From a virus: a DNA stretch of 25,705 nucleotides. The DNA is taken from positions 1-25,705 of IMG/VR virus record IMGVR_UViG_3300031977_002105. One strand, given 5' to 3'. The notes below the pieces were generated by a model that was given only the letters and a program-made list of their open reading frames with translations, was not told the DNA's origin and made no database searches. Shown piece by piece: positions 4,456 to 25,705 of the stretch (positions within the stretch are counted from its first letter, which is position 1; the number at the start of each line of letters is the position of its first letter). The translations under genes and the position numbers were made by a program.

Positions 4456-5834
4456 CACAACAAAATATTTCACAACAATATAAATTATTGAAAGCTGAAA
4501 TATCTTCAGATAGATTGGGAGATAGAACAGTAGATGTTAGGGCTCTAATACCAGAATTAACTTTCTTTGAAAATTTAGAATTGCCTTATGTGACCGGAAA
4601 AATGTTACTCGTCGATGATAATGGGTTGTTTGACCTTTTAGATTTTAGAGGCACAGAAAAAATAACCTTTGAAATTTCAGGTATCGGAAATTCTTTAGAA
4701 CCGTCGATTGGTGGAAAAGACGAAAGGGTTAAAACTTTTATTATGACCAAAATTGAAAAAACTGTTCGTAATAACGACAAGACAGACGTAATGTTGATAT
4801 CTTTGGTTGAAGAACATTTTTTTAAAAACAAGTTGGTTAAAGTCAGTAAAGCATTTACTGCAAGTATAGAGACAACGATTACTGAGATTCTTTACAGTTA
4901 TTTAAATAAGAATGTAGACCAATCTTATCTCACGAAATCATCGCAAGGTGTTCGTAAAATTAATGTTCCATATATGAACCCACTTGATGCTGTTGAATGG
5001 TTAAGAGATAGAATAACAACAGAAATTGGTGCGCCATATTTTATTCATTCATCTATATTTGATAACAATATTAGGGTGTCTAGTCTAGACGGATTTTTGT
5101 CGCAAAAACCATTCAATAGAAAAATACCATTCGTATATTCTGCAAGTGTGGCTGGTAGTGCTGAAGCACTATCTGAAAATCAAAGAAGTTTTCTAATAGA
5201 AAACTATAAAAGGGATGCTTCTGAAGATACGTTAATGATGGTCACTAAAGGTTCTTTGGGTGCGTTATATACTAACACCGATGTTGGAACTGGTATAACA
5301 ACCCGAAATCGTTTTAACATGCGAGACATTTTGTTAGATATGAAAGCGAAAGAACTTATACCTGATACAGCATCACAAATAATTTTTGATGATGCACAAG
5401 TCGTTGATAACAAATATATTGACGAATATGATTCAAAGGTTTATCATCAAATATCATCTACAGGCACATACGATACGTTTCTGGGTTACCACGATGTCGT
5501 TGATAGTTTAGATAATACTCTTAAACTAAAAAACATTGCGTTACGTAATGCCTTATATCGCAATATGGTTAATATGGTTATACCAGGGGTAGCGTTTATG
5601 TATTCTAAAGCTAGTGTTGGAGATATAATGAGATGTGTTTTCAATAGTAGTTCTGCTGACCCGAACATTAAAGATGCTGATAATTTGACTGATAAACAAA
5701 AATCCGGAAATTATTTAATATATGCAACAAGACATATGTTCAAAGGTTCCAAACATTCAGTTTCTATTAACGCTACAAAAATAACTAAAGAATACCCACA
5801 AACATCTTATAATGGAGAATCTGGTTTTGTTTAG
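4452..5834 (+). CDS. 27: gp27-like baseplate central hub protein
   Basis: A 460-aa protein resembling T4 gp27 (391 aa), the trimeric hub ring that links the tail tube to the gp5 spike complex. The N-terminal half carries the family pattern FFENLELPYVTGKMLLVDDN (about residues 37-56), describing a beta-barrel of the tube-like hub. It continues with TISKVEKTVRNNDK-like strands and a middle region PYMNPLDAVEWLRDRITTE (about 174-192). Position directly before the OB-fold spike gene matches its known partner. It starts with an ATGA overlap with gp53, and its last 23 bases overlap the annotated start of the next gene. Length exceeds T4 gp27, as is common in marine relatives. Confidence 0.8.
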   Translation: MTQQNISQQYKLLKAEISSDRLGDRTVDVRALIPELTFFENLELPYVTGKMLLVDDNGLFDLLDFRGTEKITFEISGIGNSLEPSIGGKDERVKTFIMTKIEKTVRNNDKTDVMLISLVEEHFFKNKLVKVSKAFTASIETTITEILYSYLNKNVDQSYLTKSSQGVRKINVPYMNPLDAVEWLRDRITTEIGAPYFIHSSIFDNNIRVSSLDGFLSQKPFNRKIPFVYSASVAGSAEALSENQRSFLIENYKRDASEDTLMMVTKGSLGALYTNTDVGTGITTRNRFNMRDILLDMKAKELIPDTASQIIFDDAQVVDNKYIDEYDSKVYHQISSTGTYDTFLGYHDVVDSLDNTLKLKNIALRNALYRNMVNMVIPGVAFMYSKASVGDIMRCVFNSSSADPNIKDADNLTDKQKSGNYLIYATRHMFKGSKHSVSINATKITKEYPQTSYNGESGFV

Positions 5835-6756
5835 GTCTATAGAAACAGAATATTATGGGGATCAAACCAGATGGTTCGTAGCAACGGTAATCAATTCCTC
5901 ACCACCCCCTGGATTAGAGGGCCGAGTTAGAATTCGTATTCATGGTATACACGATCCTTATACTGGAAATGTTTCCGAATCGGATTTGCCGTGGGCGAAT
6001 GTCGCTATTCCTCTTACTGAAGGCGGTAGTTCAGGTATTGGTAAAATACCACAGGTTTTGCCAGGAGCTTTCGTTTATGGTGTTTTCATGGATGGTAAAT
6101 CATCTCAAACACCTCTTATTTTGGGGTCATTAAATAAAATAGAATTTCCTACTGAAGTTCAGGTGAGAAGTTCTAAAGATAAAACTTTAAGCGTTTTCAA
6201 ATCAGACTATGACCCAGAAAGAAAGGTTGATATAATAACTGAAGAAATTACGGACGATAGACTTGCTTCAACAACCGTAGGTATTAGAAGAAGTCAGTGT
6301 ATGCGTTTCTTCATTGATAATGGATATACACCAAGACAGGCCGCAGGAATTACTGGATGTTTAGAAGCAACATCTGCTTTTGAAACGTATAATGATGATG
6401 AACCTAATCTTCAGTTCTTTGGCATAGCAAAATGGGATAAAAATGGAACTAGATATAGAAACCTAATAACATTCGCAACACAAATACAAAAACGTTCGTC
6501 CATTAAAAGATTCTCAATTCAACTTCAATATGTTTTATATGAACTGAGAACATTATTTTCGAATGTTAATGCTAAACTTTTAAGGTCAGAATTGATTGAT
6601 GGTACTGGTGGTTCTGTGGATATTATTAGTAGACTTTATCTAAAAAATCGTTTCATTGCTGGTGGAAATCCATCAATATTTAAAATGATTGATGATAGAA
6701 AAAGAAACGAATCGATTAAATTAGCAACTAAAGCATATAACGAAGTCACGGTTTAG
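5812..6756 (+). CDS. 5: gp5-like spike base: OB-fold plus degenerate tail lysozyme domain
   Basis: A 314-aa protein corresponding to the first two domains of T4 gp5. Residues 20-110 form the gp5 OB-fold (WFVATVINSS, GRVRIRIHGIHDP, LPWANVAIPL, GAFVYGVFMDG, PLILGSL), which in T4 binds the gp27 ring. After a linker, residues 157-310 match the phage tail lysozyme pattern: FFIDNGYTPRQAAGITG (166-182), FFGIAKWDKNGTRYRNL (202-218), QLQYVLYELR (237-246) and RKRNESIKLATKAYN. In active members the second motif continues LxxESGF; here it is LEATSAF (184-190), so the catalytic Glu position is T187, with E185 two residues away. ATG 5812 lacks an SD. TTG 5827 has GGAGA nine bases upstream and could be the real start. 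No beta-helix follows. Confidence 0.8.
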   Translation: MENLVLFRSIETEYYGDQTRWFVATVINSSPPPGLEGRVRIRIHGIHDPYTGNVSESDLPWANVAIPLTEGGSSGIGKIPQVLPGAFVYGVFMDGKSSQTPLILGSLNKIEFPTEVQVRSSKDKTLSVFKSDYDPERKVDIITEEITDDRLASTTVGIRRSQCMRFFIDNGYTPRQAAGITGCLEATSAFETYNDDEPNLQFFGIAKWDKNGTRYRNLITFATQIQKRSSIKRFSIQLQYVLYELRTLFSNVNAKLLRSELIDGTGGSVDIISRLYLKNRFIAGGNPSIFKMIDDRKRNESIKLATKAYNEVTV

Positions 6757-6760
6757 TAAG

Positions 6761-8515
6761 ATGTCAGTAACTAAAGAACAAATAGATAAAGAGTTATCAT
6801 CGTCTAAAAGTAGAGTCTCATATAATAATGTTGAGACCGCATCTTCTAACGTCAAAGAAACTTTTGACAATGTTAAAAAAACAGAGGTCGGTAAAAATAC
6901 CGGCGAAGTTATTGGAGGCATTCAGTCAGTCACAAGTAAAACAGATGATTTAAATAATACGATAAACAATACACCGACTGAAGGCCTGGTCACTTCTGGA
7001 GCATTAGACGCTGTTAACCCTGCACTAAACACTGACATCGGTGGACTGAGTGCGCCCATTGGTGTTCCAGTATCGATTACCTATACTGACAGTGGTGCAG
7101 TTGATACAATTGATACGAGCAGTAAAAAAACCAGTGGTTCCCTATCTTCTATTCTTAGCGGCATAACTGGGTTGGGTGTAGCACCTGGTTATCTACAAAA
7201 TATGATATCTAACGCTAACTCAAAAGGACTGAACACTTCTTTAAATTCTGTTAATGGTAAAGTCGGTGCGTTTTCAAGTATCTCTTCGGTGAATGCACTA
7301 TCGTCCAGAACACAAAGTGTTATAAACACTATTACCTCAAACGCTTCTACTGACGGTTCATCCATATCGAGCACGTATCTTAATAATTTTTCTACTGAAG
7401 GAACAAGTGCAATTAACGATGTCGCTATCACAGTAACCAAAGCCACATCTGCTTCAAAAACGCTAAATGTTCTCGAAGCAATTTCTGGTACTAAAGGTTC
7501 TGATGTTCTCCCCCAAGTTAGAAACTACAAGAATACTAGAGCTGGCGTTGTTAATCAAAGAAACAAATTCCTTTCTGATTTAAACAGAGCGATTCCTTTA
7601 AATAATCTTGGGTTTATGCAAAACGTGGTTCGGAAGATAGACCCAGCAAGTTTGGATACTGTATTCACAGTCAATAAGATCATTTTAGAAGAAAACGAAA
7701 AAGCGGAAATAATCGAATTATCTCAAGGATCACCACAACAAAAACTAAAAGCTAAAAACATATTACGTAAGAAGACCGGAAAAACAACAAGAGAAATTGA
7801 AGAGTTTTTGAATCAACTGGATTCCACGGTTGCGGGTTCTGTTATTGTTGATACCTCGAACAGTGTATTCGAAGATCCGTTTTCTATTGGTGGCACAGAT
7901 GGTCAATGGAACAATGGTGTTGGTGCTGAAGATTTTACATTTTCCTTTATATCTTCAGTTGAAGAACTCGACGCAGAGTTTCGTTCTATTTTTAGAGAAG
8001 TTACTGAAATGGTTGTTCATTGGACAGAAACATATTCTAACTCCAACATAGGTGCTGAAGAAATTAATAAAACACAACTTGCACTTGGTTTAGACGGTAT
8101 TGGATATCACTATGTGATACGAAGAGATGGTTCTGTTCAACGAGGTCGCCCAGTAAATAATCAGGGACAACACGCTGATATTAATGGTCACAACGAAAGA
8201 AGTATTGGTGTTGTGTTCGTTGGAGGTATTAATGCGCCAACAGGAACACCTAATCCGTTAGAATATAAATCTGTCAATTCATTGACTAGGAGTCAGTTTA
8301 CCTCATTTCAAGAAATATGTAAAGCGTTTTATCGTGTTTTTCCTGGAGGACAGATTCTTGGACATAACGATCTAGATCCCCTTGAAGATGACCCTGGTTT
8401 CGATGTTAGGGATTTCTGTGAAGATGTGTTCGGTAAGAAGTCTTTATTTGTTGATACTACCAGTGAAAGTCCATTTACGGCTGCACAGATTAATCAGACA
8501 GAAGTTCCATCATGA
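6761..8515 (+). CDS. Baseplate-associated N-acetylmuramoyl-L-alanine amidase
   Basis: A 584-aa protein with a C-terminal amidase_2 (T7 lysozyme-type) domain, which cuts the amide bond between MurNAc and the stem peptide. Ligands and active-site features are intact: VVHWTET with H420, GIGYHYVIRRDG with Y449, HNERSIGVVFVGG with H477, and GHNDLDP with H535 followed by DDPGFDV with D544 in the place where T7 lysozyme has Cys. Residues 1-225 are Ser/Thr/Asn-rich and low in complexity, perhaps a fibrous or flexible arm. Residues 225-370 are helical and charged. It sits between the OB/lysozyme gene and the spike gene and overlaps the latter by ATGA. It is therefore likely a virion-borne wall-cutting enzyme used at injection, not a free endolysin. 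Enzyme family is sure; virion location is inferred. Confidence 0.85.
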   Translation: MSVTKEQIDKELSSSKSRVSYNNVETASSNVKETFDNVKKTEVGKNTGEVIGGIQSVTSKTDDLNNTINNTPTEGLVTSGALDAVNPALNTDIGGLSAPIGVPVSITYTDSGAVDTIDTSSKKTSGSLSSILSGITGLGVAPGYLQNMISNANSKGLNTSLNSVNGKVGAFSSISSVNALSSRTQSVINTITSNASTDGSSISSTYLNNFSTEGTSAINDVAITVTKATSASKTLNVLEAISGTKGSDVLPQVRNYKNTRAGVVNQRNKFLSDLNRAIPLNNLGFMQNVVRKIDPASLDTVFTVNKIILEENEKAEIIELSQGSPQQKLKAKNILRKKTGKTTREIEEFLNQLDSTVAGSVIVDTSNSVFEDPFSIGGTDGQWNNGVGAEDFTFSFISSVEELDAEFRSIFREVTEMVVHWTETYSNSNIGAEEINKTQLALGLDGIGYHYVIRRDGSVQRGRPVNNQGQHADINGHNERSIGVVFVGGINAPTGTPNPLEYKSVNSLTRSQFTSFQEICKAFYRVFPGGQILGHNDLDPLEDDPGFDVRDFCEDVFGKKSLFVDTTSESPFTAAQINQTEVPS

Positions 8516-9966
8516 CAACATTACTAGACAATTTTAAAAACAGAATTAAATCATTAGGAACTGGTAAAGAAGAAACTCAGGGTGTTCCTAGAGAAGGTTT
8601 CAATGAAGCTTCTGGGGAATTTCCTAAAAGAGATTACTTCTTTGGTTCTTCTATTAATAAATCAGCAAGGGGCGAAACGGCACAAAATCTCTTTGCAGGT
8701 GGTGGAGACTACGACGTATCCATAAAATTTTCTGATCAAAAACCCTCATTGTTTCCTTACAATCAGGTTCAAGAAACAACTTCTGGTCATGCGATTCATG
8801 TAGACGATACACCTGGTGGTGAACGAATACTCATCAAACACCGAACAGGTGCGGGTTTAGAACTTAGAGCAGACGGTAGTGTTTTATTTTCATCTGTCAA
8901 TAAGAAAGTATCTGTTACTGGTGGCGATGATGTTGTGATTGTTGAAGGTCAAGCAGACCTTGTATACAAAGGCAATGTCAATGTCAAGATTGCTGGTGAT
9001 TACAACCTTGAAGTAGAAGGAAATATTAACATCACTACGGCTGGTAATAAGACAGAAAAGATTCACCGTAACCACACCAAGACAGTTGATGAAAATCAGA
9101 ATCACGTGGTAAAAGGTTCTCGTTCTCTTCGAGTAGTAGATGTTAATACAGAAACATTATTATCAGACCGCAATGTATTTGTCAAGGGCGAACAGAAGAA
9201 TTATGTTGAAGGTAGTGTAGAGTTTACTAGTGGAGATAAGTTGATTACTACTGCCGTAAACGAATGGGTCGCCTCTTCACAGGTCGCAATGTTAGACGCT
9301 GATACTGTTTCCGTGATTGGTGTGACAGGAACGATTGGTGGTCAGTTAATAGATCACTACGGTAAAGTCTTCTCAGGTCCTCCCGGCGGTTCTGGTTTGG
9401 GTGGCACAACACACTACGGTACTTTTATCGGTAAAGCGACGGAGGCAATCACGTCAGACTTTGCAAACAAGGCAGGAGAATCTTCATGGGCTAAATCTGC
9501 TCCGGCTGAAGTAGGAACAGCAACAGGTGCTTCTAAGACAAGGAATCCTAAAACTTATCCAACCAAGATGCCTTACGTTCAAATTGAACCCACAGCAGAT
9601 ATGCCAACAACCGCAATCATAACACCTTTACTTTCGTCTGGCAACTATGGAATAAGAAACGTTGCTGTTGATCCTGGCGATGAACTTAAATTAGAGATTT
9701 TAAAAACTGATGATTATGATGGACTGTTCAATCGGGAACCCTCTATTCACGAAATTCGTTCTAAACTAAGAGACCCTGCAAACTTACAAAATTCAAATTT
9801 GATTGGTGCGTTGATTGGTGAAGGTAGATTGTCTAGTAAGTATTCCGAAATTAGACCCTCAAGAATAGGTAGAGCATACAATAAAAACCCAAGCTTACAA
9901 TTTGGTAGAAATCTTCTGGGCAACAACCCGGCTGAAAATAGAAGTAAGAGGTTCACTCCATCATGA
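8512..9966 (+). CDS. Beta-helical baseplate spike (gp5 C-terminal-like)
   Basis: A 484-aa protein equivalent to the membrane-piercing needle that forms the C-terminal third of T4 gp5. Residues 85-130 (SGHAIHVDDTPGGERILIKH, GAGLELRADGSVLF) are the entry region common to gp5/VgrG-type spikes. About residues 130-265 are short VxG-type strand repeats (VEGQADLVYKGNVNVKIAG, YNLEVEGNINITTAG, VVKGSRSLRVVD, FVKGEQKNYVEGSVEF), as expected for a triple-stranded beta-helix. A Gly-rich stretch (289-303) and roughly 180 further residues follow, including EIRSKLRDPAN, so the helix is not the end of the protein. No PAAR tip or metal-binding HxH is evident. It is coupled by ATGA to both neighbours. Confidence 0.8.
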   Translation: MTTLLDNFKNRIKSLGTGKEETQGVPREGFNEASGEFPKRDYFFGSSINKSARGETAQNLFAGGGDYDVSIKFSDQKPSLFPYNQVQETTSGHAIHVDDTPGGERILIKHRTGAGLELRADGSVLFSSVNKKVSVTGGDDVVIVEGQADLVYKGNVNVKIAGDYNLEVEGNINITTAGNKTEKIHRNHTKTVDENQNHVVKGSRSLRVVDVNTETLLSDRNVFVKGEQKNYVEGSVEFTSGDKLITTAVNEWVASSQVAMLDADTVSVIGVTGTIGGQLIDHYGKVFSGPPGGSGLGGTTHYGTFIGKATEAITSDFANKAGESSWAKSAPAEVGTATGASKTRNPKTYPTKMPYVQIEPTADMPTTAIITPLLSSGNYGIRNVAVDPGDELKLEILKTDDYDGLFNREPSIHEIRSKLRDPANLQNSNLIGALIGEGRLSSKYSEIRPSRIGRAYNKNPSLQFGRNLLGNNPAENRSKRFTPS

Positions 9967-10553
9967 TATATCTTGTTGACCCCGTATACAATCCGAACTT
10001 TCAGTCGGAAATTACTTCCGCAACACCTCTTGCACCTGGTATTACCATAGCCAAGTTTCTAGGGTCTAAGGGTTCTCGTTTACAGTTTGAACAAATGACT
10101 GGTGATAAAAAACTTATCGCACGCCAACTCTATCTTCAGGCGGAAGTAATGCGAACAGTAATCACGAACAAAACTTTTGAAAAAAACCGATTGATTGTGT
10201 CAGAAGGTTTATATAAACCAGCGCCTGGAGAAACACCTACAAGAAACTCCATTAACGATTACAAACAAACTGGACGTGCGATTGTTTATCAATTACTTGG
10301 AGAAGACGGTAAGATCGATTTTGAGAACTCGTTTGAACTATCCGTGTATTGGAAAGACTTTTTGAAGTATCAAGAACTTATTCTTGATTACGATACATAT
10401 GACCCTTCAGGTGAACTCAGTTGTCAACTAGTAATGATTATGCCAGTGGCAAATGAAAACTTCGATTTATCGTTTAGTAAGAACTTGAAAACTACGTACA
10501 ATGGATATACTTTATCCCTCAATGAAGTTATTGAAGTATTAAAACCCATATAA
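9963..10553 (+). CDS. Conserved baseplate-region protein, possible inactive M15-like peptidase fold
   Basis: A 196-aa protein, not recognised with certainty. Its segment order resembles M15 D,D-carboxypeptidase-like domains: a helix with AEVMRTVI (60-67), LIVSEGLYKP (77-86) where M15_3 enzymes have a VxSGYRSP strand, YKQTGRAIVY (100-109) where they have SxHxxGxAxD, and YQELILDYDTYD (136-147) resembling FDQLIxEyG. The metal ligands are all gone: the His position is K101, the Asp position V108, and the final HVS strand reads LSCQLVM (152-158). If the relation is real, the protein is structural or binding, not enzymatic. It is coupled by ATGA to the spike gene and its stop codon overlaps a late promoter for gp25. 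The M15 link is my inference. Confidence 0.45.
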   Translation: MIYLVDPVYNPNFQSEITSATPLAPGITIAKFLGSKGSRLQFEQMTGDKKLIARQLYLQAEVMRTVITNKTFEKNRLIVSEGLYKPAPGETPTRNSINDYKQTGRAIVYQLLGEDGKIDFENSFELSVYWKDFLKYQELILDYDTYDPSGELSCQLVMIMPVANENFDLSFSKNLKTTYNGYTLSLNEVIEVLKPI

Positions 10554-10582: not shown

Positions 10583-11026
10583 ATGACATCTAGAGTTTTT
10601 TCATTAGAAGATGCTAATATCTCCAAAATTAGTGTCACTAGTACAAGGATTAAACCGTATAAAGATTTAGATTTGTCTTTTACTGCTAGTGATGTGGGCA
10701 ATATTTTCAAAAAAACTGAAGGTGCTGCAGTAAAACAAGCAATAAAAACCTTATTGAATTCAAATAAACTGGATAAACCATTTGATCCTAACTTTGGAGT
10801 TGATTTGCGGCGGTTTTTGTTTGAACTTGCTGACGGACAAACAGGGGGGAGAATAACAGAACGAGTTAAATCTACGATAGAAGCTTATGAACCAAGAGCA
10901 TCAGTACGTTCTATAAAAGTAGGTGTACAAGAAGATATTAACGCAGTGAACGTTCTACTCACATTCTCGATAAAAAATACAGATCAAACTATAACATTAG
11001 AAACCACAATTTCGAGGTTAAGATAA
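10583..11026 (+). CDS. 25: gp25-like baseplate wedge protein
   Basis: A 147-aa member of the GpW/gp25 family (T4 gp25 is 132 aa). gp25 forms the core bundle of the wedge with gp6 and contacts the sheath. Typical features are VKQAIKTLLNSNKLDKPFDPNFG (about 50-72), where the fold begins, LRRFLFE, and the EPR motif (E103-P104-R105) followed by ASVRSIKVGV and two closing strands. It starts 26 bases after a late promoter, and its stop codon directly abuts the gp6 ATG (TAAATG). The SD is weak. Identity and synteny with gp6 make this a secure call. Confidence 0.92.
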   Translation: MTSRVFSLEDANISKISVTSTRIKPYKDLDLSFTASDVGNIFKKTEGAAVKQAIKTLLNSNKLDKPFDPNFGVDLRRFLFELADGQTGGRITERVKSTIEAYEPRASVRSIKVGVQEDINAVNVLLTFSIKNTDQTITLETTISRLR

Positions 11027-16546: not shown

Positions 16547-19500
16547 ATGCCCACTACCTATAATCAGAATATAGAGAGAACTACTTATAAAGACGATTAT
16601 GATGCTGCCAAAGGTTATCATAAAGTCTTGTTCAACTCTGGTCGGCCTCTTCAAGCGCGAGAACTGAATCAATTACAGACAATAATTCAAAAAGAAATCG
16701 GTCGTTTGGGTGCCAATTTATTTAAAAACGGTGCTGCTGTAAAACCAGGTGGGATTACTGTTAACAATGCTTATGAATATGTACGTTTACAAACTGTTAA
16801 TAATCCAACAAGCGCTCTCGTCGGAAAAACATTAACCAGTTCATCTACACCAACCATTACTGCTAAAGTAGTTCAGTTTGTACCCAAGTCAGATATAAAC
16901 AATGATACTACAAACGTACCAACCGTTTTTGTTGTGTATCAAGAAACAACACCCCAGTCTGCTGATCCTAATATTCCCGATAATTCTGGTCCAGCTCCTG
17001 TAAGATTTGCTGCAAACGATATATTATCAGTTAGTGGTGGTGGTACAGTACAGGTTGTGGATGGTTCTAATCCCAACATTACTCCTACTGGAAGGGGGTG
17101 TAAAGTTGGCGTTGGAGCAGGCACATATTTCGTTTTAGGACATTTTGTTGAAGTTCCAAAGCAAGCATTAATCCTTTCAAAATATTTTCAGGGTTATACT
17201 GGTGACATCGGGTTTAAAGTTTTTCAGGATATTTTAACAGCGACTGACAGTAACTTACTATATGATAATCAGGGGGCTACACCTAATCTAAATTCACCTG
17301 GCGCAGATAGATATCGAATTCGTTTAAAATTGACACGAAGGGAAGATTGTCTCGCATCAGAAAACTTTATCTTTTTAGCTAGAGTCGCAAACGGAGTAAT
17401 TGCAAATCAGGTTACTGGTCTAAACGAATATAATAAAATTAATGATGTTTTGGCTCAAAGAACGAAAGAAGAATCAGGTAACTACATTGTAGACCCTTTC
17501 AAGATTCGATTCGTTGAAATTGATTCATCAGCCGCAGAAGATAGGTTATATCTTGAAGTTTCTAGAGGTGTTGCATATATTAACGGTTATCGTTCAGAGA
17601 ACCCGACAGTAAAAAAACTTGTCATTCCAAAACCAACCGTTTCTGAATTAGTATCAGGGGAAAATATTCCAGTAATCTATGATCGATATTTTAATGTCAA
17701 TGCAACCGACCTAAACACACACAAAGGAACGCTTGCATTAAATTCTACTGTTTCTTTATGGACAGGTGATAGTGCTAATGGATCAGAATTAGCCAAAGTT
17801 AAAGTTCGTTCTATAGAAAGCACTACGGGTTCTTTTGGTGGAGTAAGCTCAGTTCATCGTGTTTATATTTCGAGCGCTGATGATATTTCAGCTTCTATAC
17901 GAACAGCTAGAAGTATCGGAACTGGACCTACCAATTACTACAAACTTGTTCTTGAGGGTAATCCTCCTAGAGCACTTGTAAAAGGCGCCCAGAAAAATAA
18001 AGATCTTCTTTTTAAACTACCCAGATCAAGACCATCAAATGTTGACCCATTAGATTACAATTACATTTTTCAACAGACTTTTACAACAGATGCTGATGGT
18101 ACAAAACTGATCAGTGGTACAGATTTCACTAATACCTCATCATGGATTGTGTCAAGCGTTGATTCGGGATCAGTATCTTTTGGTGGAACATTAGGCGGCA
18201 ATGCGGATACTTTCGATTTTCAAAGTGGTTTATTAGGATCAAAACAATACACCGTAACTGGATATCAGAGACTATCAAACGCAACAGCAAAAACAAAGAC
18301 ACCTACTGAAACTAGTATTACTGGAACTGTATCCTCGGGTCAACCTTTTAGTCTAGGGGAATACGATATTAAGTCAGTTTCCGAAATCAAAGATAGTGCT
18401 AATGGAACAAGTATCTTTGGGTTTTTCACACTCGACAATGGTCAGAGAGATACTCACTACGCTAAGGGAAGACTTCTTCAGGTAGCACCCTATTCTGGTC
18501 CAATTTATGCGAAGTTCCGATATTGGGCAAGAGGTGGTACTGGTAATTATTATTCTAAGAATTCATACATTCCTAATAATTCAGTTATCCCGAATATACC
18601 GGCTCCTTATAACGAAATTCCTAGTTACAAACCGAATTACGATACAACTACCAGATTGTATAATGTTATTGATTTTAGGCCAGATTTTGATAGTGCTAGT
18701 GGAACGTTTGATAATGGTACCAATCTATTTTATCTCCCTCAAAGAGCGTCTCTTTTGACCGGAGATGTTAGTTATTATCTTCCTCGAGCTGACAAGTTGA
18801 TGATGTCTCAAGAGGGTAAACTTCTGTATATTAGGGGTGTTCCTGATAGAAACCCACAATTTAAGAAAACTCCAGAAGGTTCATTAGATCTCTATAAAAT
18901 TATAATGAACGCCAACACTTTAACTCCTGAAGATGTTTCAATTACAAAAATTGAAGCTAAACGGTATACGATGAAAGATATTGGCAAACTAGAGAAAAAA
19001 CTTGATCGTTTAGAGGAAGTTACTACACTTAGTTTATTAGAACTTGATACGAAAAACCTCAACCTTCTTGATGCAGATGGTAACGTTCGAACCAAGTCTG
19101 GTTTCTTTGTAGATAACTTTAAAGATCAAACTCTATCGGCCACAGCTTCAAAGGAATATCGTGCTGCACTTGATTTTCAGGGAAATGTCTGTAGACCTAG
19201 ATTCACTCAGGATAATATTCGTTTAATTTGGGATAGTGTCAATTCAGATGGTGTTGTTCGAAAAGGTGATATGTTGTATCTAGATTATCAAGAAGTTAAC
19301 TGGAAATCTGTTCAGATTGCGTCTCGTACAGAATCAGTCAACCCATTTATTATAGGTATTTTTAATGGTACTATGGATCTTTCTCCAGCCTCAGATGAAT
19401 GGAAAGATACCAAATACACGGCACCGAAAATTATTCCAAATGGCACGAGAATAGAAAACACTGAAGTTGGTTTTATTTGGAATGAACATGAAACCAATTG

Positions 19501-22500
19501 GTCAGGACAAAATCCTGATGATTTGGAAGTCGGACAGGTTACTGGTGTCACATCAAGCATCGCTGGTTCAGAAACGAATGTTAATACAACGTCTACTACT
19601 AATGATCTTAACGGCGCCTTCGTTGAAAGTGTAACGACAGACGTAACTACAACCACTACCACAACGACCACTAAACATACGGTTACTAAAATTGTAGCAG
19701 AAGAAACCGTTGAAGAATATGTTGGGGAAAGGGTTGTTCAGGTTTTTGCTGCACCTTGGATGCGTTCTAGAAAGATTTACTTTAAAGCGGAAGGTATGAG
19801 ACCCAACATTAGAGTTTATCCTTTCTTTAATAACAAGAATGTTTCTAAGTGGTGTAGACAAGAAGATTTTGTTCGTTATTCTGATAGAACAACGGATGAA
19901 GGTAACTTAAATACACAGTACACTTCTCATCCAGATGGTTCAACTCCTTTGGTTACCAATCAGTTCGGTGAAGTTTCCGGATCGTTTCTAATCCCAAGAG
20001 TTGTGAATTCAGAAAAGTATTATGAAACTGCTTTAGGTATAGAATCCTATGATCCGAAACAGGACGTTGATCGTTTTCCTTGTGGTAGTTTAGAATTCAA
20101 GTTGCTTGACATCAGTCAAGCTGCTGACCAGGCTGCAACAACAAAAGCGTTTGCAATCTACAGTGCGAAAGGAACGATAGAACAGAAACAAAAAGACTAC
20201 CTGAGTACACGTGTTTTATATCAGGCGAAAGCAGATTTTTATAGTGATAATACTAGGGTGTCTACAACGTCTAGTACATCACTAAAACAGAATAAGGAAA
20301 CAGAAGATAAACTCACAGCCACCATTTCTAAAGTGGAGGATATTGAAACAGAAGTTGCTGACATAAAACAAACCCAAGACTATATTTTAGACGAACTTGA
20401 TGCACTAGAAACTGAGATAATAACTAATCAGCAGGCGATATCTAACATTCATGATGCCATAGAAGCTAACGCCATTCAAGAAACTACTACCCAGACAGAA
20501 AACAGTGCTGTTGGTAGTGACGTTGGCAATGGTAATAGCGAAGGCATCGGTGCGGTCGCTACTAGTACAACAACTATCACCCATATAGACATTAGTGCTG
20601 AAGGTGATAATGGTTCTCAATCAACACAAACTACGGTAGTATTTAATGTTAATAATAGTGGTGAAGCGGTTGTTGGAACTGCGAATGGTGTTACTATAAT
20701 TAACAGCGAAGACGAGGATACGGGTGTTATATTAGTTGATGGTACTCAAGATGGTGATCGCGGTGGGGTATTAGAATCGGGCGGTGATATCGATAGTACT
20801 TATGAAGGTCAAAAAAATCCGGTTGATAATTCGGGGACCACAGTTGGCGGTTCAGCCGCTGCAGCAGCCAATCCAGCGGAAAGTTTTAACGTTGATGAAA
20901 TAGATGTGTCCAAAATTGCGTCTTTACAAAATATTGGGAACTTGGGAATAGATTTAGGATGTATTTATGGGGACCCCGTAGCGCAAACCTTTCTCGTTGA
21001 TAACGAATATGGTGTTTTCATCACCAAAGTGGGATTGTTTTTTGCTACTAAAGATTTAGAAATTCCAGTTCAGGTACAGATTAGACCGACAGTTAATGGT
21101 GCACCATCATCAAACGAAATCATTGCTAAAAAATATTTAGCACCGTCTCAAGTCCAAGTTCCGGCCGCAAGTGATAGAAGAAATCTAACAGCGGTTAAAG
21201 CAAAAGAAACGGTTTTCGAATTTGATGAACCAGTATTTCTTAATCCGTTTACTGAATATGCTATTTGTGTACTTGCATCAAATACACCATTATATACATT
21301 ATATGTTTCTGAAATGGAACAGTGGGTTCTTGGTTCGACAGATCAAAGAATTTTGACTCAACCTTCTTTGGGTTCTTTCTTTAAGTCGCAAAACTCTCAG
21401 ATTTGGGAACCCGACCAAAATGTTGATATGATGTATAAATTATATCGTGCAAATTTTAGATTTGGTGGTAAGGCCGTATTTCATAATGCTACAGTTCCAT
21501 CGGAACTTCTAGATCCAGATCCAATCAATACAACTGCTGGTTCTAATGAAATTTATGTGGCGCATTATAATCATGGTTTGACAGTGGGTGATCAAGCAGT
21601 ACTTTCCGGTATAGACTCTGCTACAATATATGGTGGAACTGGTGGTATTTTAGGTTCATCTATGTTAGGTTCTAGAACTGTAACAAAGATTGATGCTTTT
21701 GGATATACATTCAATGCTGATAGTACTGCTCCAAGAACAGGTATGTTTGGAGGAACCGCTGTTACTTCACAAAGAAACATTCAGTTTAATGTTGCTAACG
21801 TTACCGTTGATACAGCTCTTCCGGATTTAACTTCCGTATCAGCTGCTTATAAATTTACAACTGGTAGTGTGATTGCTCCAGCTGATCCGGTTCCTGTAAT
21901 TGCTTGGAGTAAAGATACGAACTGGCAAAGAATCACACCGAAGATAAACACTTCTTTCACTTGGCCAAGGGTTATTGGAAGTAGTTACAATGAAACTACT
22001 CAAAGTCTAACTTATAATAAGTCGGTTGATTTTAAAGTTGATATGAAGAGTGGTCATGAATTTGTGTCTCCTATGTTAGATCTTCAAAGATGTTCTATGA
22101 CAATGATCGAAAACATTGTTGATTATCAAGATTCGGCTGATGCAAATGCGGGTAATATTCCAATCAGATTTACATCTGAAACCGACCCTTATAGTGGTTC
22201 TCATCCAGCAAAACACATTACTAAACCAATTACCTTGGCGGAAGATGCTGTTGGATTAAAGATTCTTTATGCTGCTAATATTCCTCCCAATTCAGAGGTT
22301 GATCTATATTATAGAACAGCAATCGAAGGTGAATCTATTATTGATAAAAACTGGATTTATGATGCACCAGAAAATGAATTGCCGAAAGATGAAAATCCTG
22401 CAATATTCAGGGAATATACCAATTTAGTTGGTGGTGATGACGGGTCTTTAGATGCGTTTACAGAATTCCAGATAAAACTTGTGTTCCGTTCTCGCAATTC

Positions 22501-22552
22501 ATCTAAAGTGCCTTTGGTGAGAGATTTAAGAGCAATAGCGTTGGTGGATTAA
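16547..22552 (+). CDS. Giant baseplate/tail-fibre structural protein (2001 aa)
   Basis: A 2001-aa protein. The start (YNQNIERTTYKDDYD, FNSGRPLQARELNQLQTIIQ) matches the DUF4815-type domain at the head of large structural proteins of T4-like cyanophages. Later parts, in order: a helical KDIGKLEKKLDRLEEVTTLS segment near residue 810; a Thr run (about 1033-1041); AAPWMRSRKIYF and GMRPNIRVYPFF (about 1068-1095); a coiled coil (1246-1305); a Gly/Ser/Asp-rich linker (about 1310-1450); GDPVAQTFLVDNEYGVFIT (from 1475); a segment with QPSLGSFFKSQNSQIWEPDQ; and a beta-rich C-terminus. It may combine roles of T4 wedge and fibre-anchoring proteins such as gp10 or the missing part of gp7. The SD AAGGA (16533-16537) overlaps the gp8 stop. 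Structural role is likely; exact position in the virion is unknown. Confidence 0.75.
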   Translation: MPTTYNQNIERTTYKDDYDAAKGYHKVLFNSGRPLQARELNQLQTIIQKEIGRLGANLFKNGAAVKPGGITVNNAYEYVRLQTVNNPTSALVGKTLTSSSTPTITAKVVQFVPKSDINNDTTNVPTVFVVYQETTPQSADPNIPDNSGPAPVRFAANDILSVSGGGTVQVVDGSNPNITPTGRGCKVGVGAGTYFVLGHFVEVPKQALILSKYFQGYTGDIGFKVFQDILTATDSNLLYDNQGATPNLNSPGADRYRIRLKLTRREDCLASENFIFLARVANGVIANQVTGLNEYNKINDVLAQRTKEESGNYIVDPFKIRFVEIDSSAAEDRLYLEVSRGVAYINGYRSENPTVKKLVIPKPTVSELVSGENIPVIYDRYFNVNATDLNTHKGTLALNSTVSLWTGDSANGSELAKVKVRSIESTTGSFGGVSSVHRVYISSADDISASIRTARSIGTGPTNYYKLVLEGNPPRALVKGAQKNKDLLFKLPRSRPSNVDPLDYNYIFQQTFTTDADGTKLISGTDFTNTSSWIVSSVDSGSVSFGGTLGGNADTFDFQSGLLGSKQYTVTGYQRLSNATAKTKTPTETSITGTVSSGQPFSLGEYDIKSVSEIKDSANGTSIFGFFTLDNGQRDTHYAKGRLLQVAPYSGPIYAKFRYWARGGTGNYYSKNSYIPNNSVIPNIPAPYNEIPSYKPNYDTTTRLYNVIDFRPDFDSASGTFDNGTNLFYLPQRASLLTGDVSYYLPRADKLMMSQEGKLLYIRGVPDRNPQFKKTPEGSLDLYKIIMNANTLTPEDVSITKIEAKRYTMKDIGKLEKKLDRLEEVTTLSLLELDTKNLNLLDADGNVRTKSGFFVDNFKDQTLSATASKEYRAALDFQGNVCRPRFTQDNIRLIWDSVNSDGVVRKGDMLYLDYQEVNWKSVQIASRTESVNPFIIGIFNGTMDLSPASDEWKDTKYTAPKIIPNGTRIENTEVGFIWNEHETNWSGQNPDDLEVGQVTGVTSSIAGSETNVNTTSTTNDLNGAFVESVTTDVTTTTTTTTTKHTVTKIVAEETVEEYVGERVVQVFAAPWMRSRKIYFKAEGMRPNIRVYPFFNNKNVSKWCRQEDFVRYSDRTTDEGNLNTQYTSHPDGSTPLVTNQFGEVSGSFLIPRVVNSEKYYETALGIESYDPKQDVDRFPCGSLEFKLLDISQAADQAATTKAFAIYSAKGTIEQKQKDYLSTRVLYQAKADFYSDNTRVSTTSSTSLKQNKETEDKLTATISKVEDIETEVADIKQTQDYILDELDALETEIITNQQAISNIHDAIEANAIQETTTQTENSAVGSDVGNGNSEGIGAVATSTTTITHIDISAEGDNGSQSTQTTVVFNVNNSGEAVVGTANGVTIINSEDEDTGVILVDGTQDGDRGGVLESGGDIDSTYEGQKNPVDNSGTTVGGSAAAAANPAESFNVDEIDVSKIASLQNIGNLGIDLGCIYGDPVAQTFLVDNEYGVFITKVGLFFATKDLEIPVQVQIRPTVNGAPSSNEIIAKKYLAPSQVQVPAASDRRNLTAVKAKETVFEFDEPVFLNPFTEYAICVLASNTPLYTLYVSEMEQWVLGSTDQRILTQPSLGSFFKSQNSQIWEPDQNVDMMYKLYRANFRFGGKAVFHNATVPSELLDPDPINTTAGSNEIYVAHYNHGLTVGDQAVLSGIDSATIYGGTGGILGSSMLGSRTVTKIDAFGYTFNADSTAPRTGMFGGTAVTSQRNIQFNVANVTVDTALPDLTSVSAAYKFTTGSVIAPADPVPVIAWSKDTNWQRITPKINTSFTWPRVIGSSYNETTQSLTYNKSVDFKVDMKSGHEFVSPMLDLQRCSMTMIENIVDYQDSADANAGNIPIRFTSETDPYSGSHPAKHITKPITLAEDAVGLKILYAANIPPNSEVDLYYRTAIEGESIIDKNWIYDAPENELPKDENPAIFREYTNLVGGDDGSLDAFTEFQIKLVFRSRNSSKVPLVRDLRAIALVD

Positions 22553-22556
22553 TATA

Positions 22557-22781
22557 GTGGATTTAATTAAAGTTGATGGACATACCGGCCTTGGAAGAGA
22601 TTCAAAAACGGGTGCAATTATTAATATAAATAGAAAAGAAGTTGAAACGGCTCGTGAACGTAAAAAGAAAAGACTTGAGTCAAAAAGAAATCAAGAAAAA
22701 CTTGCTGCTCAAGTCGATTCTTTAGAGAATGAAGTCGCCGATATCAAAGACATGTTAACTAAGATATTAGAGAAACTATAA
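22557..22781 (+). CDS. Small coiled-coil protein
   Basis: A 74-aa protein starting with GTG four bases after the giant gene. The N-terminal third (LIKVDGHTGLGRDSKTGAII) looks like a short beta-hairpin of a kind seen in small proteins at this position in T4-like marine phages. It is followed by a basic helix (about 28-45) and a C-terminal heptad helix, QVDSLENEVADIKDMLTKIL (about 52-71), that should trimerise or dimerise. The core EVADIK also occurs in the coiled coil of the 2001-aa protein, where the sequence is IETEVADIKQTQDYIL. Its stop overlaps the fibre ATG (TAATG). It could be a small joint or chaperone for fibre attachment; this is inference. I do not know a T4 counterpart. Confidence 0.65.
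   Translation: MDLIKVDGHTGLGRDSKTGAIININRKEVETARERKKKRLESKRNQEKLAAQVDSLENEVADIKDMLTKILEKL
22625..22632 (+). promoter_or_regulatory. Internal TATAAATA box upstream of the fibre gene
   Basis: A perfect late promoter core inside the 74-aa gene, followed by GAAAAG. It lies 148 bases before the fibre ATG, much farther than the 25-26 bases at the other genes. It could give the fibre gene extra late transcripts, or may be a chance match encoding N-I-N in AT-rich DNA. Confidence 0.3.
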
Positions 22782-25705
22782 TGGCAGACCCTTACGGATA
22801 CGACCGTCCTACAGTTGTTGACCTCAATGATAACGTCAACACCTTTCGTCGAAAAGTAAATCAGATCAGTGATGATTTGGGAGATAAAAGACGTTTATTA
22901 AACTGGCCTGGAACCTCTCTTGCTACTGACAGTGATATAGTAGGTAATTTGATTGAGTTAGATTATCGTCTAAATCAAACAAGTGCAGATCTATACCTTC
23001 GTGCAGATGGAGGTAGTCTTTATATTCAGAATGGCACAACCTCAACTATCGCTGCTGAATTCTTATACGATAGTGCCGCAGGTAATCTAAGTCTCATCAC
23101 ACCAATGTCTGGAGATTTCACCATCGATACAGTTGGTGATATTATTCTTGACGCTGATGGTAATGACATTCGATTTAAGAATGGCGGTGGTAATGATGAA
23201 GTCATTCATACTTTGGCAAATACTGGTGTCTATACTATTACTGCACCCGATAACTATATCATTGATGTTCAGGGCACTGGTGATATCACATTAGACGCCG
23301 CTGGTCAAAACATTTATTTTGATGATGCTGGTAATAGAAGAATCACATATACTCTTGGTGCAACTACTGACACATATCTTGCAGGCAATTACACGTTAAA
23401 CGTCGATGGTTCAATTGCAGATTCAGCAGGCACTACATATTCTCTTGTTGCTGGAACAAATATCACACAGACTTCGACTACTGGTTACACTACGCATATT
23501 TCAGGAACTACGACTACTCATACGGTAGGAACCGACTATGCGTTAACAGCTGGTGGAAACTATACAGTAGATGTTGATGGTTCAATCACAGATTCAGCAA
23601 ATTCTATTTCTAGAATTTCTACTACTACAACAACAGATACAGTAGGGACCAATTACACATTAACAGCTGGCGGAAACTACACGGTTGATGTTGATGGTGC
23701 TATTAAAGATTCTGCTGGTACTTCTATCACTCATGTATCAGGCACAACCACAACCCACACCGTAGGAACAAACTATGCGTTGACAGCTGGTGGAAACTAT
23801 ACTGTCGATGTGGATGGTTCACTCGCTGATTCTGCCGATACTATTTCTAGAACTTCTGGAACAACTACTACTGACACGGTTGGTAGTGATTACACATTAA
23901 CAGCTGGTGGAAACTACACGGTTGATGTTGATGGTTCAATTGCGGATTTGGCGGGAACCACAATCTCCAGAACTGCTGGTACCAATATTACTGATACTGC
24001 GTCTACTGGATCATATACGTTAACCGCAGATACTAACATTAGTCAAACGGCTACTACGGGAACAATTACGCAAACTTCTGGTACTACTTTTGACCAGGTA
24101 TCTGGTGGAAACTTTACTACTACTGTTACGGGTAATGTTCTTGTAGATGCATCCGGCGACATCACTCTCGATGCTGACGGAAATGACATTTTCTTCAGAG
24201 ACGGAAATACCCTAAGGCTTCAATTTAATTTAGGTAACAATAACAACGAGAATTGGACTGGCAACCTTACTCGCAATGTATCCGGATCAATTATTGACTC
24301 AGCTGGAACATCTATACAAACCGTTTCCACTACTACAACAACTCATACAGTAGGTACTGACTACGCATTAACCGCTGGTGGTAACTACACCGTTGACGTT
24401 GATGGTTCTATTGCGGATTCTGCTGGAACCACAATCTCCAGAACAGCTGGTACAAATATTACGGACACGGCTACTACTGGATCAATTACACAAACATCAG
24501 GTACGACATTTAACCAAGTATCCGGTGGTAATTTCACCACTACGGTTACCGGCGATGTTCTTGTAGACGCTTCAGGTGATATTACCCTTGATGCTGCTGG
24601 ACAACAAATTAACTTTGTTGATGCAACTAACACAAGAATGGTGTTCAACCTTGATGCGACACCACAAATTGACGTAACAGGTAATTACACGGTTTCGGGT
24701 TCAGGTTCAATTCTTCAGTCTTCTACTACTACACAAGAATTGACAGGTACAGATATTACCCTGGACGCATCAAACAACATCTATCTTGAGGCTGATGGTG
24801 ACCAGATTCATCTTCGTGCTATTACTGCTAATAAATTTATCTTTGGTGTAGCAGCATCACCGACTCTTGACATTACTGGAAACTATACTGAAACAGGTTC
24901 AGGTTTCCTTTACACCAAGGCTGGAACGTACCTCAAAGATTCTGCTGCAACAACTTCTACGTTGACTGCAAATAGTGCTATTACACGAACTTCTGTAAAC
25001 AGTACAATTACAGATGTTGCTAAGACTAATATTTCACAGACAGCAACTACGGGTTCTTATTCACAATCTTCTGGTACAACGTTTACACAAACGTCTGGTG
25101 GCGCATTTACACAAACGTCTGGTGGTAATTTTACCAATAACGTTACGGGTAATATTCTAATTGACGCAACTGGATTTTACGATTTGGCGACAGGTGGAAC
25201 TATTAAAGATTCTGCTGGTACTGCTCATACAACAATTGCGGGTACTCAGGTTGTTAGAACTTCAGGGACAACTACTACCGACACGGCGGGGACTGATTAT
25301 ACACTGACTGCCGCAGATAATATTAGTCAAACAGCAACTGCTGGTACCATCACACAAACTTCTGGTACGACATTTGATCAGGTGTCTGGTGGAAACTTTA
25401 CGACTACCGTAACAGGCAATTTCACAGTTGATGCTTCTGGTATAATCGTATTAGATACGGAAAGTGATACTGTTACATTTAAAGATGGTGCTGCTGGTCA
25501 TTCTGTGACTCACGTGTTTACTCCTGCGAATGGTGATTACACGGTTAGTGCACCAAGAGACTATACGCTTGATATTGTCGGCGATATTATCCTTGACGCT
25601 GACGGTGGAGATATAATCCTTAGAGATGCTGGTACGGAAGACTATCGGTTTGCTACAGATGGGACATTCTCACGAACAGGTAACTTGACAATTGATGCCA
25701 GTGGT
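22781..25705 (+). CDS. Repeat-rich tail fibre-like protein, partial (open at right edge)
   Basis: An open frame of 975 codons without a stop, running off the window. It begins with ATG overlapping the previous stop (TAATG). Residues 1-45 (DLNDNVNTFRRKVNQISDDLGD) form a polar helix, probably a coiled-coil anchor to the baseplate. The rest is low-complexity beta repeat, rich in Thr/Gly/Ser/Asp. One repeat family is built on LTAGGNYTVDVDGSIADSAG (39-40 aa units), another on ITQTSGTTFDQVSGGNFTTT plus LVDASGDITLDADGNDI. The latter GDIxLDAxGxxIxF motif recurs at least six times. This is the make-up of a long trimeric fibre or whisker with repeated shaft modules; the receptor-binding tip and any self-cleaving chaperone domain would lie beyond the edge. 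Frame checked codon by codon. Confidence 0.8.
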   Translation, partial: MADPYGYDRPTVVDLNDNVNTFRRKVNQISDDLGDKRRLLNWPGTSLATDSDIVGNLIELDYRLNQTSADLYLRADGGSLYIQNGTTSTIAAEFLYDSAAGNLSLITPMSGDFTIDTVGDIILDADGNDIRFKNGGGNDEVIHTLANTGVYTITAPDNYIIDVQGTGDITLDAAGQNIYFDDAGNRRITYTLGATTDTYLAGNYTLNVDGSIADSAGTTYSLVAGTNITQTSTTGYTTHISGTTTTHTVGTDYALTAGGNYTVDVDGSITDSANSISRISTTTTTDTVGTNYTLTAGGNYTVDVDGAIKDSAGTSITHVSGTTTTHTVGTNYALTAGGNYTVDVDGSLADSADTISRTSGTTTTDTVGSDYTLTAGGNYTVDVDGSIADLAGTTISRTAGTNITDTASTGSYTLTADTNISQTATTGTITQTSGTTFDQVSGGNFTTTVTGNVLVDASGDITLDADGNDIFFRDGNTLRLQFNLGNNNNENWTGNLTRNVSGSIIDSAGTSIQTVSTTTTTHTVGTDYALTAGGNYTVDVDGSIADSAGTTISRTAGTNITDTATTGSITQTSGTTFNQVSGGNFTTTVTGDVLVDASGDITLDAAGQQINFVDATNTRMVFNLDATPQIDVTGNYTVSGSGSILQSSTTTQELTGTDITLDASNNIYLEADGDQIHLRAITANKFIFGVAASPTLDITGNYTETGSGFLYTKAGTYLKDSAATTSTLTANSAITRTSVNSTITDVAKTNISQTATTGSYSQSSGTTFTQTSGGAFTQTSGGNFTNNVTGNILIDATGFYDLATGGTIKDSAGTAHTTIAGTQVVRTSGTTTTDTAGTDYTLTAADNISQTATAGTITQTSGTTFDQVSGGNFTTTVTGNFTVDASGIIVLDTESDTVTFKDGAAGHSVTHVFTPANGDYTVSAPRDYTLDIVGDIILDADGGDIILRDAGTEDYRFATDGTFSRTGNLTIDASG
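23519..23989 (+). repeat. Four tandem 39-40-aa shaft repeats
   Basis: Units begin at 23519, 23636, 23756 and 23873 (periods 117, 120 and 117 bp) and each contains LTAGGNYTVDVDG. Units alternate: 1 and 3 start HTVGTxYALT, 2 and 4 start DTVGxxYTLT. Codons differ at synonymous sites, so the copies are not freshly duplicated. A fifth unit of the H type stands at 24344. Confidence 0.85.
23873..24616 (+). repeat. Duplicated 140-aa block, copies at 23873 and 24344
   Basis: The order TVG-LTAGGNYTVDVDG, TTISRTAGTNITDTA, ITQTSGTTF, VSGGNFTTTVTG, LVDASGDITLDA is found at 23873-24196 and again at 24344-24616. The offset is 471 bp in the first half and 420 bp in the second, because copy 2 lacks 17 codons (the segment around SYTLTADTNISQTATTG, 24008-24060 of copy 1). 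A third, partial copy of the second half begins near 25346. Confidence 0.75.
25082..25129 (+). repeat. 24-bp in-frame tandem duplication
   Basis: Two adjacent 24-bp units encode FTQTSGGA and FTQTSGGN. Their first 20 bases are identical, in contrast to the synonymous drift of the other repeats in this gene, so this duplication looks recent. Confidence 0.8.

Follow-up and report, generated by a model that had tools for sequence, protein, structure and literature searches.

A phage gene of the T4-type baseplate cassette, whose start codon overlaps the stop codon of the preceding spike gene, very probably encodes, judging from predicted models, a protein with the M15/Hedgehog fold but without the metal site. 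The explanation which we favor as a whole, and which we consider reasonably likely, is that this protein represents the M15 tip of the gp5 spike, which was split off, disarmed and is now a non-enzymatic part of the spike.

The gene is located on a 25,705-base fragment of an uncultured virus (hereafter the window), on which the tail and baseplate genes form a cassette of T4 type. The minus strand encodes hub, tube, gp2-like and gp4-like genes; after this block follow a tube-cap gene, a gp53-like gene, a tail protein, the gp5 protein with OB and lysozyme-like domains and the amidase, and then the spike, the gene under study (here termed the pseudo-M15 gene), gp25-like and gp6-like genes and further wedge or fiber genes (Table 1). 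In the window, gp5 is distributed over three genes between positions 5812 and 9966 (OB and lysozyme-like domains, amidase, and spike), and the long N-terminal half of the amidase matches nothing in Pfam. Further downstream, a 2001-aa protein (16547-22552) belongs to phrog_358, a group of unknown function, and another ORF of at least 975 aa (22781-25705) runs off the end of the fragment.

Table 1 Features of the spike region in the window and the positions that align with the M15 active site.
Feature	Position	Strand	Basis or occurrence
gp5 N-terminal OB domain and Phage_lysozyme2 domain	5812..6756	+	Pfam and PHROG scans
Amidase_2 protein of the same cassette	6761..8515	+	Domain match; in 97/144 family loci
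gp5-type spike (beta-helix) with C-terminal tail ending LGNNPAENRSKRFTPS	8512..9966	+	Tail motif conserved in the clade
Pseudo-M15 protein (putative Hedgehog/D,D-peptidase fold), 196 aa	9963..10553	+	ORF and predicted models
ATGA, overlap of spike stop and pseudo-M15 start	9963..9966	+	4 nt in 57/67, 1 nt in 7/67
K101 codon, where M15 has its first zinc His	10263..10265	+	
V108 codon, where M15 has its zinc Asp	10284..10286	+	
D142 codon, in the column of the Glu that never varies in gp5 M15 domains	10386..10388	+	
Final sheet strand, residues 153-159, no His; expected place of the last zinc His	10419..10439	+	
gp25-like baseplate wedge protein, next gene downstream	10583..11026	+	

The ORF begins with ATG and is a real gene under strong purifying selection, since the comparison with the relative L005 yielded a dN of 0.067 versus a dS of 1.41 and since 356 relatives were found. 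Its coordinates as given in the preliminary description hold, and so do the segments named there, namely VSEGLYKP (residues 79-86), GRAIV (residues 104-108) and YQELILDYDTYD (residues 136-147), as well as the residues K101 and V108. The proposed coupling to the spike gene agrees with the sequence: the ATG (9963-9965) overlaps the spike TGA (9964-9966) by four bases, an arrangement which would allow translational coupling of both genes.

In IMG/VR, one query yielded 19 loci, a profile counted 235 relatives, and wider profiles counted 344 and 356, with 80 loci obtained from each profile search. The phages that carry the pseudo-M15 family are numerous, uncultured and for the most part marine. A tblastn search with three family members against 50,697 phage records gave only chance-level matches (best E 0.7), and a bacterial genome collection, searched for hints at the host, contained two family loci (L242 and L243), both on contigs of metagenome-assembled genomes (MAGs). 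Because the phage records did not match and the bacterial hits are restricted to MAG contigs, the family is confined to uncultured material within these collections. The respective bins are a Sphingobacteriales and a Thiotrichaceae MAG, into which phage contigs may have been binned.

The AlphaFold2 model of the window protein (alignment of 31 rows; pLDDT 85.8, pTM 0.84) comprises a helix (residues 49-67), a strand (76-81), a helix (97-101), a strand (106-112), a helix (120-133), a strand (138-144), the final strand of the sheet and a C-terminal hairpin (174-179/182-186), and the predicted elements fall in the order that had been read from the sequence in the preliminary description. A second model was obtained for L134, a member that is 45% identical to the window protein (46 rows; pLDDT 93.1, pTM 0.89), and the core order of the Hedgehog/M15 D,D-peptidase fold, helix-strand-helix-strand-helix-strand-strand, is present in both predicted models. 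The N-terminal DPxYNP segment is conserved in the family and is modeled with low confidence in the window protein and with confidence in L134.

When the window model was compared with the PDB by VIA, Hedgehog N-domains filled rows 1-29, with Z values of 5.2-6.2 and an rmsd of 2.8-4.7 across 95-119 residues, and were followed by the M15 chains ChiX, LysB4 and MepA; with the L134 model, rows 1-23 were all Hedgehog (Z 5.2-6.0), and Ply500 came next. At Z values below 8 a common arrangement of elements could explain the resemblance, and such values alone are little proof, yet in both lists one superfamily precedes all unrelated rows. With Foldseek, no PDB chain matched the window model significantly, LysB4 coming closest at an E value of 0.23. 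In a library of predicted viral structures, gp5 of phage pf16 was the top match of both searches, with E values of 5.1e-8 for the window model (TMq 0.62) and 1.5e-9 for the L134 model (TMq 0.64, alignment over 205 columns), and among the seven top rows of the L134 search, one carries no name and the other six are named as gp5 OB-domain or M15A proteins. The structure comparison proposed in the preliminary description thus delivered an M15 match with aligned ligand columns, with Hedgehog and M15 chains ahead of unrelated ones. Its assignment to M15 stands with respect to the predicted fold, which both models display, but not with respect to the closest relatives, which are the C-terminal M15 domains of gp5 and not free carboxypeptidases.

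The ligand columns were counted over 77 distinct family members and 85 distinct gp5-type M15 domains, using a register on which hhalign and three MAFFT modes agree and which was not set by hand; N-L, G, A and Q are mostly retained between both groups in this register. All 85 gp5-type M15 domains keep His, Asp, His and Glu. In the family, by contrast, the column of the first zinc His is occupied by Arg in 50 and by Lys in 27 members, and the column of the zinc Asp by Val in 66 and otherwise by Gly, Ala, Ile or Ser, with Asp in none of the 77. The Arg of the SGxR (SGFR) motif, which is present in 85/85 M15 domains, is Tyr in 77/77 family members, and the Glu that is invariant among gp5 M15 domains, putatively the catalytic acid, is replaced by Asp in 76 and retained in one. 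The position of the second His column is less secure than that of the first His and the Asp columns: MAFFT aligns the last zinc His with Pro, Asn, Ser or Gly of the family because of gap placement, whereas the strand order points to the vicinity of C154/Q155, and neither placement holds His. No family member carries His in the strand of the third ligand, and all 77 members are free of His at the positions that correspond to window residues 76-111; from window residue 113 on, 68 members lack His and the nine exceptions have it outside 150-157, while the window protein contains no His along its full length. The loss of all three ligands, for which the preliminary description had listed K101, V108 and non-His residues in the window protein, extends to the 77 family members compared.

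Neither the two His and one Asp that bind zinc in M15 enzymes nor the SGxR Arg are found in the family, and the protein is pseudo-enzyme-like and falls outside the M15 peptidases in the enzymatic sense. The positions aligned with the active site carry new residues that are equally conserved (Y84, K/R101 and D142), and Asp is kept at D119, D132, D142, D144 and D147 in 76-77 of the 77 members. In a subgroup, the members of the L051-L083 type, about 40 residues are inserted behind the YEPN motif, within the loop that leads up to the site of the lost first zinc ligand.

On the level of sequence, the support for a kinship with M15 is modest but above controls. The profile-profile comparison gave a score of 27.7 (P 0.0015, or 0.0006 when the row order and the match setting were changed), which was reached by none of 200 column-permuted controls (best 24.8) and exceeded the reversed control (14.9) as well as 15 decoy families of baseplate and tail proteins (highest score 20.2); hhalign probabilities for family-M15 pairs ranged from 6 to 29%. 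Neither the protein nor family alignments matched M15 in Pfam or PHROG or with the Peptidase_M15_3 model (PF08291), whose curated cut-off was not reached. This model is insensitive here, since 0/11 gp5-M15 proteins exceeded the cut-off in hmmscan, although pf16 did so in a genome search. The PHROG matches obtained, phrog_4074 (E 0.034, one member) and phrog_27543 (E 0.0074, one of 31), were unusable, and the lone match in a profile search of PDB sequences, beta-lactoglobulin (E 1.5), was taken as chance; the same search with M15 domains found nothing either.

The top viral match led to the likely parent of the family, the C-terminal M15 domain of gp5. In pf16, gp5 consists of an OB domain and a spike, followed at the C-terminus by an M15 domain in which the SQHLKGEAVD and PWIHVS motifs are intact, and a tblastn search with this M15 domain matched 147 phage records, two of which are pf16 itself. 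In Cr30, Melnitz and Milchi the M15 domain closes a gp5 or PAAR protein near gp25; among ten matched records inspected, M15 occurred as a free small protein in two. A profile of eleven M15 domains was used to fetch 80 of 551 IMG/VR relatives. In 93/93 fetched loci the M15 domain lies at the end of its ORF (within 40 residues), and in 64 of the 93 (duplicates included and some loci being incomplete) gp25 follows downstream. Two of ten M15-bearing gp5 proteins scanned also contain a T4-type lysozyme domain, so that the M15 enzyme is not the sole wall cutter there. Intact M15 C-termini on gp5 or PAAR proteins, as in L151 (725-2254), L152-L159 and the fetched IMG/VR loci, are widespread among myophages, although the annotation often reads hypothetical, lysozyme, endolysin or PAAR. 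In L176 (2096-2866), an M15 domain with intact ligands is encoded on its own ORF directly after one that is gp5-like, which may illustrate that the domain can be split off with its ligands retained.

The pseudo-M15 gene occupies the place of a gp5 tip domain between spike and gp25: across 144 family loci (window and duplicates included), the spike is upstream in 131 and gp25 downstream in 143. It is not part of the same polypeptide as gp5 or PAAR, and among 67 distinct members with a clear start, the start overlaps the spike stop in 64 and is spaced by 3 nt in one, which gives 65 members with an overlapping or closely spaced start, while in two it is 1,224 nt away. In L041 and L045, about 1.2 kb (about 4771-6000) separate both genes. 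No locus contained both families, which is partly due to how the loci were obtained, each having been fetched by one family with up to about 6 kb on either side. The amidase was found in 97 of the 144 family loci (the rest being cut short or undetected) versus 0/93 M15 loci, which suggests a swap of the wall-cutting tool from M15 to amidase. A GNNP..SKRF motif in the conserved C-terminal tail is present in 63 of 67 family spikes and absent from every ORF of the 93 M15 loci, so that the tail might be where the separated domain docks. A replacement of PAAR was considered as well, but PF05488, which was absent from the window and eight related records and also from pf16, C48C1 and S-CAM8, was detected in 5 of 17 records and decides nothing on this point.

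In a gp6 tree (FastTree, 135 rows, midpoint root, several long branches), the 85 family rows lie on one side of a single branch (support 97) beside C48C1, and M15-bearing rows surround this group solely under midpoint rooting. C48C1, the sister record and nearest named relative, has neither the pseudo-M15 gene nor the amidase in the slot; a location of the domain elsewhere in this phage was considered, but tblastn revealed no family member and the insensitive PF08291 model nothing.

We propose that a C-terminal M15 domain on gp5, as in other T4-like phages, would be the ancestral state and that this tip split off to form its own gene, a descent which we regard as probable. The separated domain would then have been disarmed by loss of the zinc ligands and, according to the alignment, of the SGxR Arg, perhaps once the amidase had joined the cassette. 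The resulting non-enzymatic protein, made together with the spike, would dock on the conserved C-terminal tail of the latter and act as a tip, plug or adaptor in the baseplate, with wall cutting left to the lysozyme-like domain and the amidase; such a role at the spike tip or as an adaptor is plausible, albeit with slightly less than even confidence. The fold could instead have been acquired separately, from an endolysin or another M15 protein, or by convergence, as might be expected from the weak sequence similarity to gp5 M15, from C48C1 lacking both genes and from the fact that no intact separate M15 intermediate was seen inside the family clade. We consider this rather unlikely, given that the best structural matches are gp5 tip domains over 205 columns, that the gene lies in the same slot with an overlapping start, and that the profile score is above all controls.

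With respect to function, the predicted fold might have kept its old substrate groove in order to bind peptidoglycan stem peptides uncut and thereby hold the spike, the lysozyme-like domain and the amidase on the wall. The retained fold, the equally conserved Y84, K/R101 and D142 at the active-site positions and the adjoining lysozyme-like domain and amidase would agree with this, but the Arg of SGxR, which we take as substrate-binding, is Tyr in 77/77 members, and we judge wall binding to be improbable. In the D-Ala-D-Ala carboxypeptidase this Arg (R138) is listed apart from the metal and catalytic residues (PMC11266112). Comparably unlikely in our view is an assembly helper or a baseplate part away from the spike tip, which would work with gp25 and the wedge; gp25 downstream in nearly every locus and the conserved DPxYNP segment speak for it, whereas it is the spike gene that the start overlaps, and in relatives the domain is a part of the spike. 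A metalloenzyme with a new site built from the five invariant Asp residues (D119 to D147) draws on their conservation, but with no His in the window protein and no known M15 ligand left it appears highly improbable, and to our knowledge no enzyme of the M15/Hedgehog fold has an all-Asp metal site.

The proposed disarmed spike part shares its predicted fold, element order, C-terminal hairpin and place between spike and gp25 with the M15 domains of gp5 (pf16 gp208, Cr30, Melnitz) and PAAR (Milchi, Vibrio phage 1.244.A) proteins of T4-like and other myophages, but those are fused and keep His-Asp-His and Glu in 85/85, whereas the window family is encoded by a separate gene and has none of them (Glu being replaced by Asp). 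The M15 endolysins LysB4 and Ply500, which are among the next best PDB matches after Hedgehog and have the same fold, are active zinc enzymes for lysis and not baseplate parts. Hedgehog, whose N-terminal signaling domain has the fold in common with the window protein, is described in PMC11266112 as a recognized M15-like pseudopeptidase with zinc ligands H140, D147 and H182; it keeps these ligands and serves in animal signaling, while the window protein keeps none and belongs to a phage tail. A baseplate protein with a wall peptidase domain is the gp15 hub of cyanophage A-1(L), which is reported to be active in assays (PMC10966104) and which is comparable in this feature. Among the PMC articles listed in our searches, preprints excluded, we recognized none on an inactivated M15 fold as a component of a phage baseplate.

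These results describe a family without a significant tblastn match in phage records (three members searched) and draw attention to the intact M15 tips on gp5 and PAAR proteins, which are common in myophages and often annotated otherwise. They suggest how a phage injection device could swap an enzyme at its piercing tip for a non-enzymatic part. In its most far-reaching form, which we put forward as tentative, the peptidase at the spike tip would have become, in this clade, a protein of its own that is free of metal, serves for recognition or as a plug and docks on a tail which the spike evolved to match it, with a newly gained amidase as the cutter. The protein would be a metal-free counterpart to the Hedgehog pseudo-peptidase and, if this is true, a viral parallel to Hedgehog across a whole phage clade.
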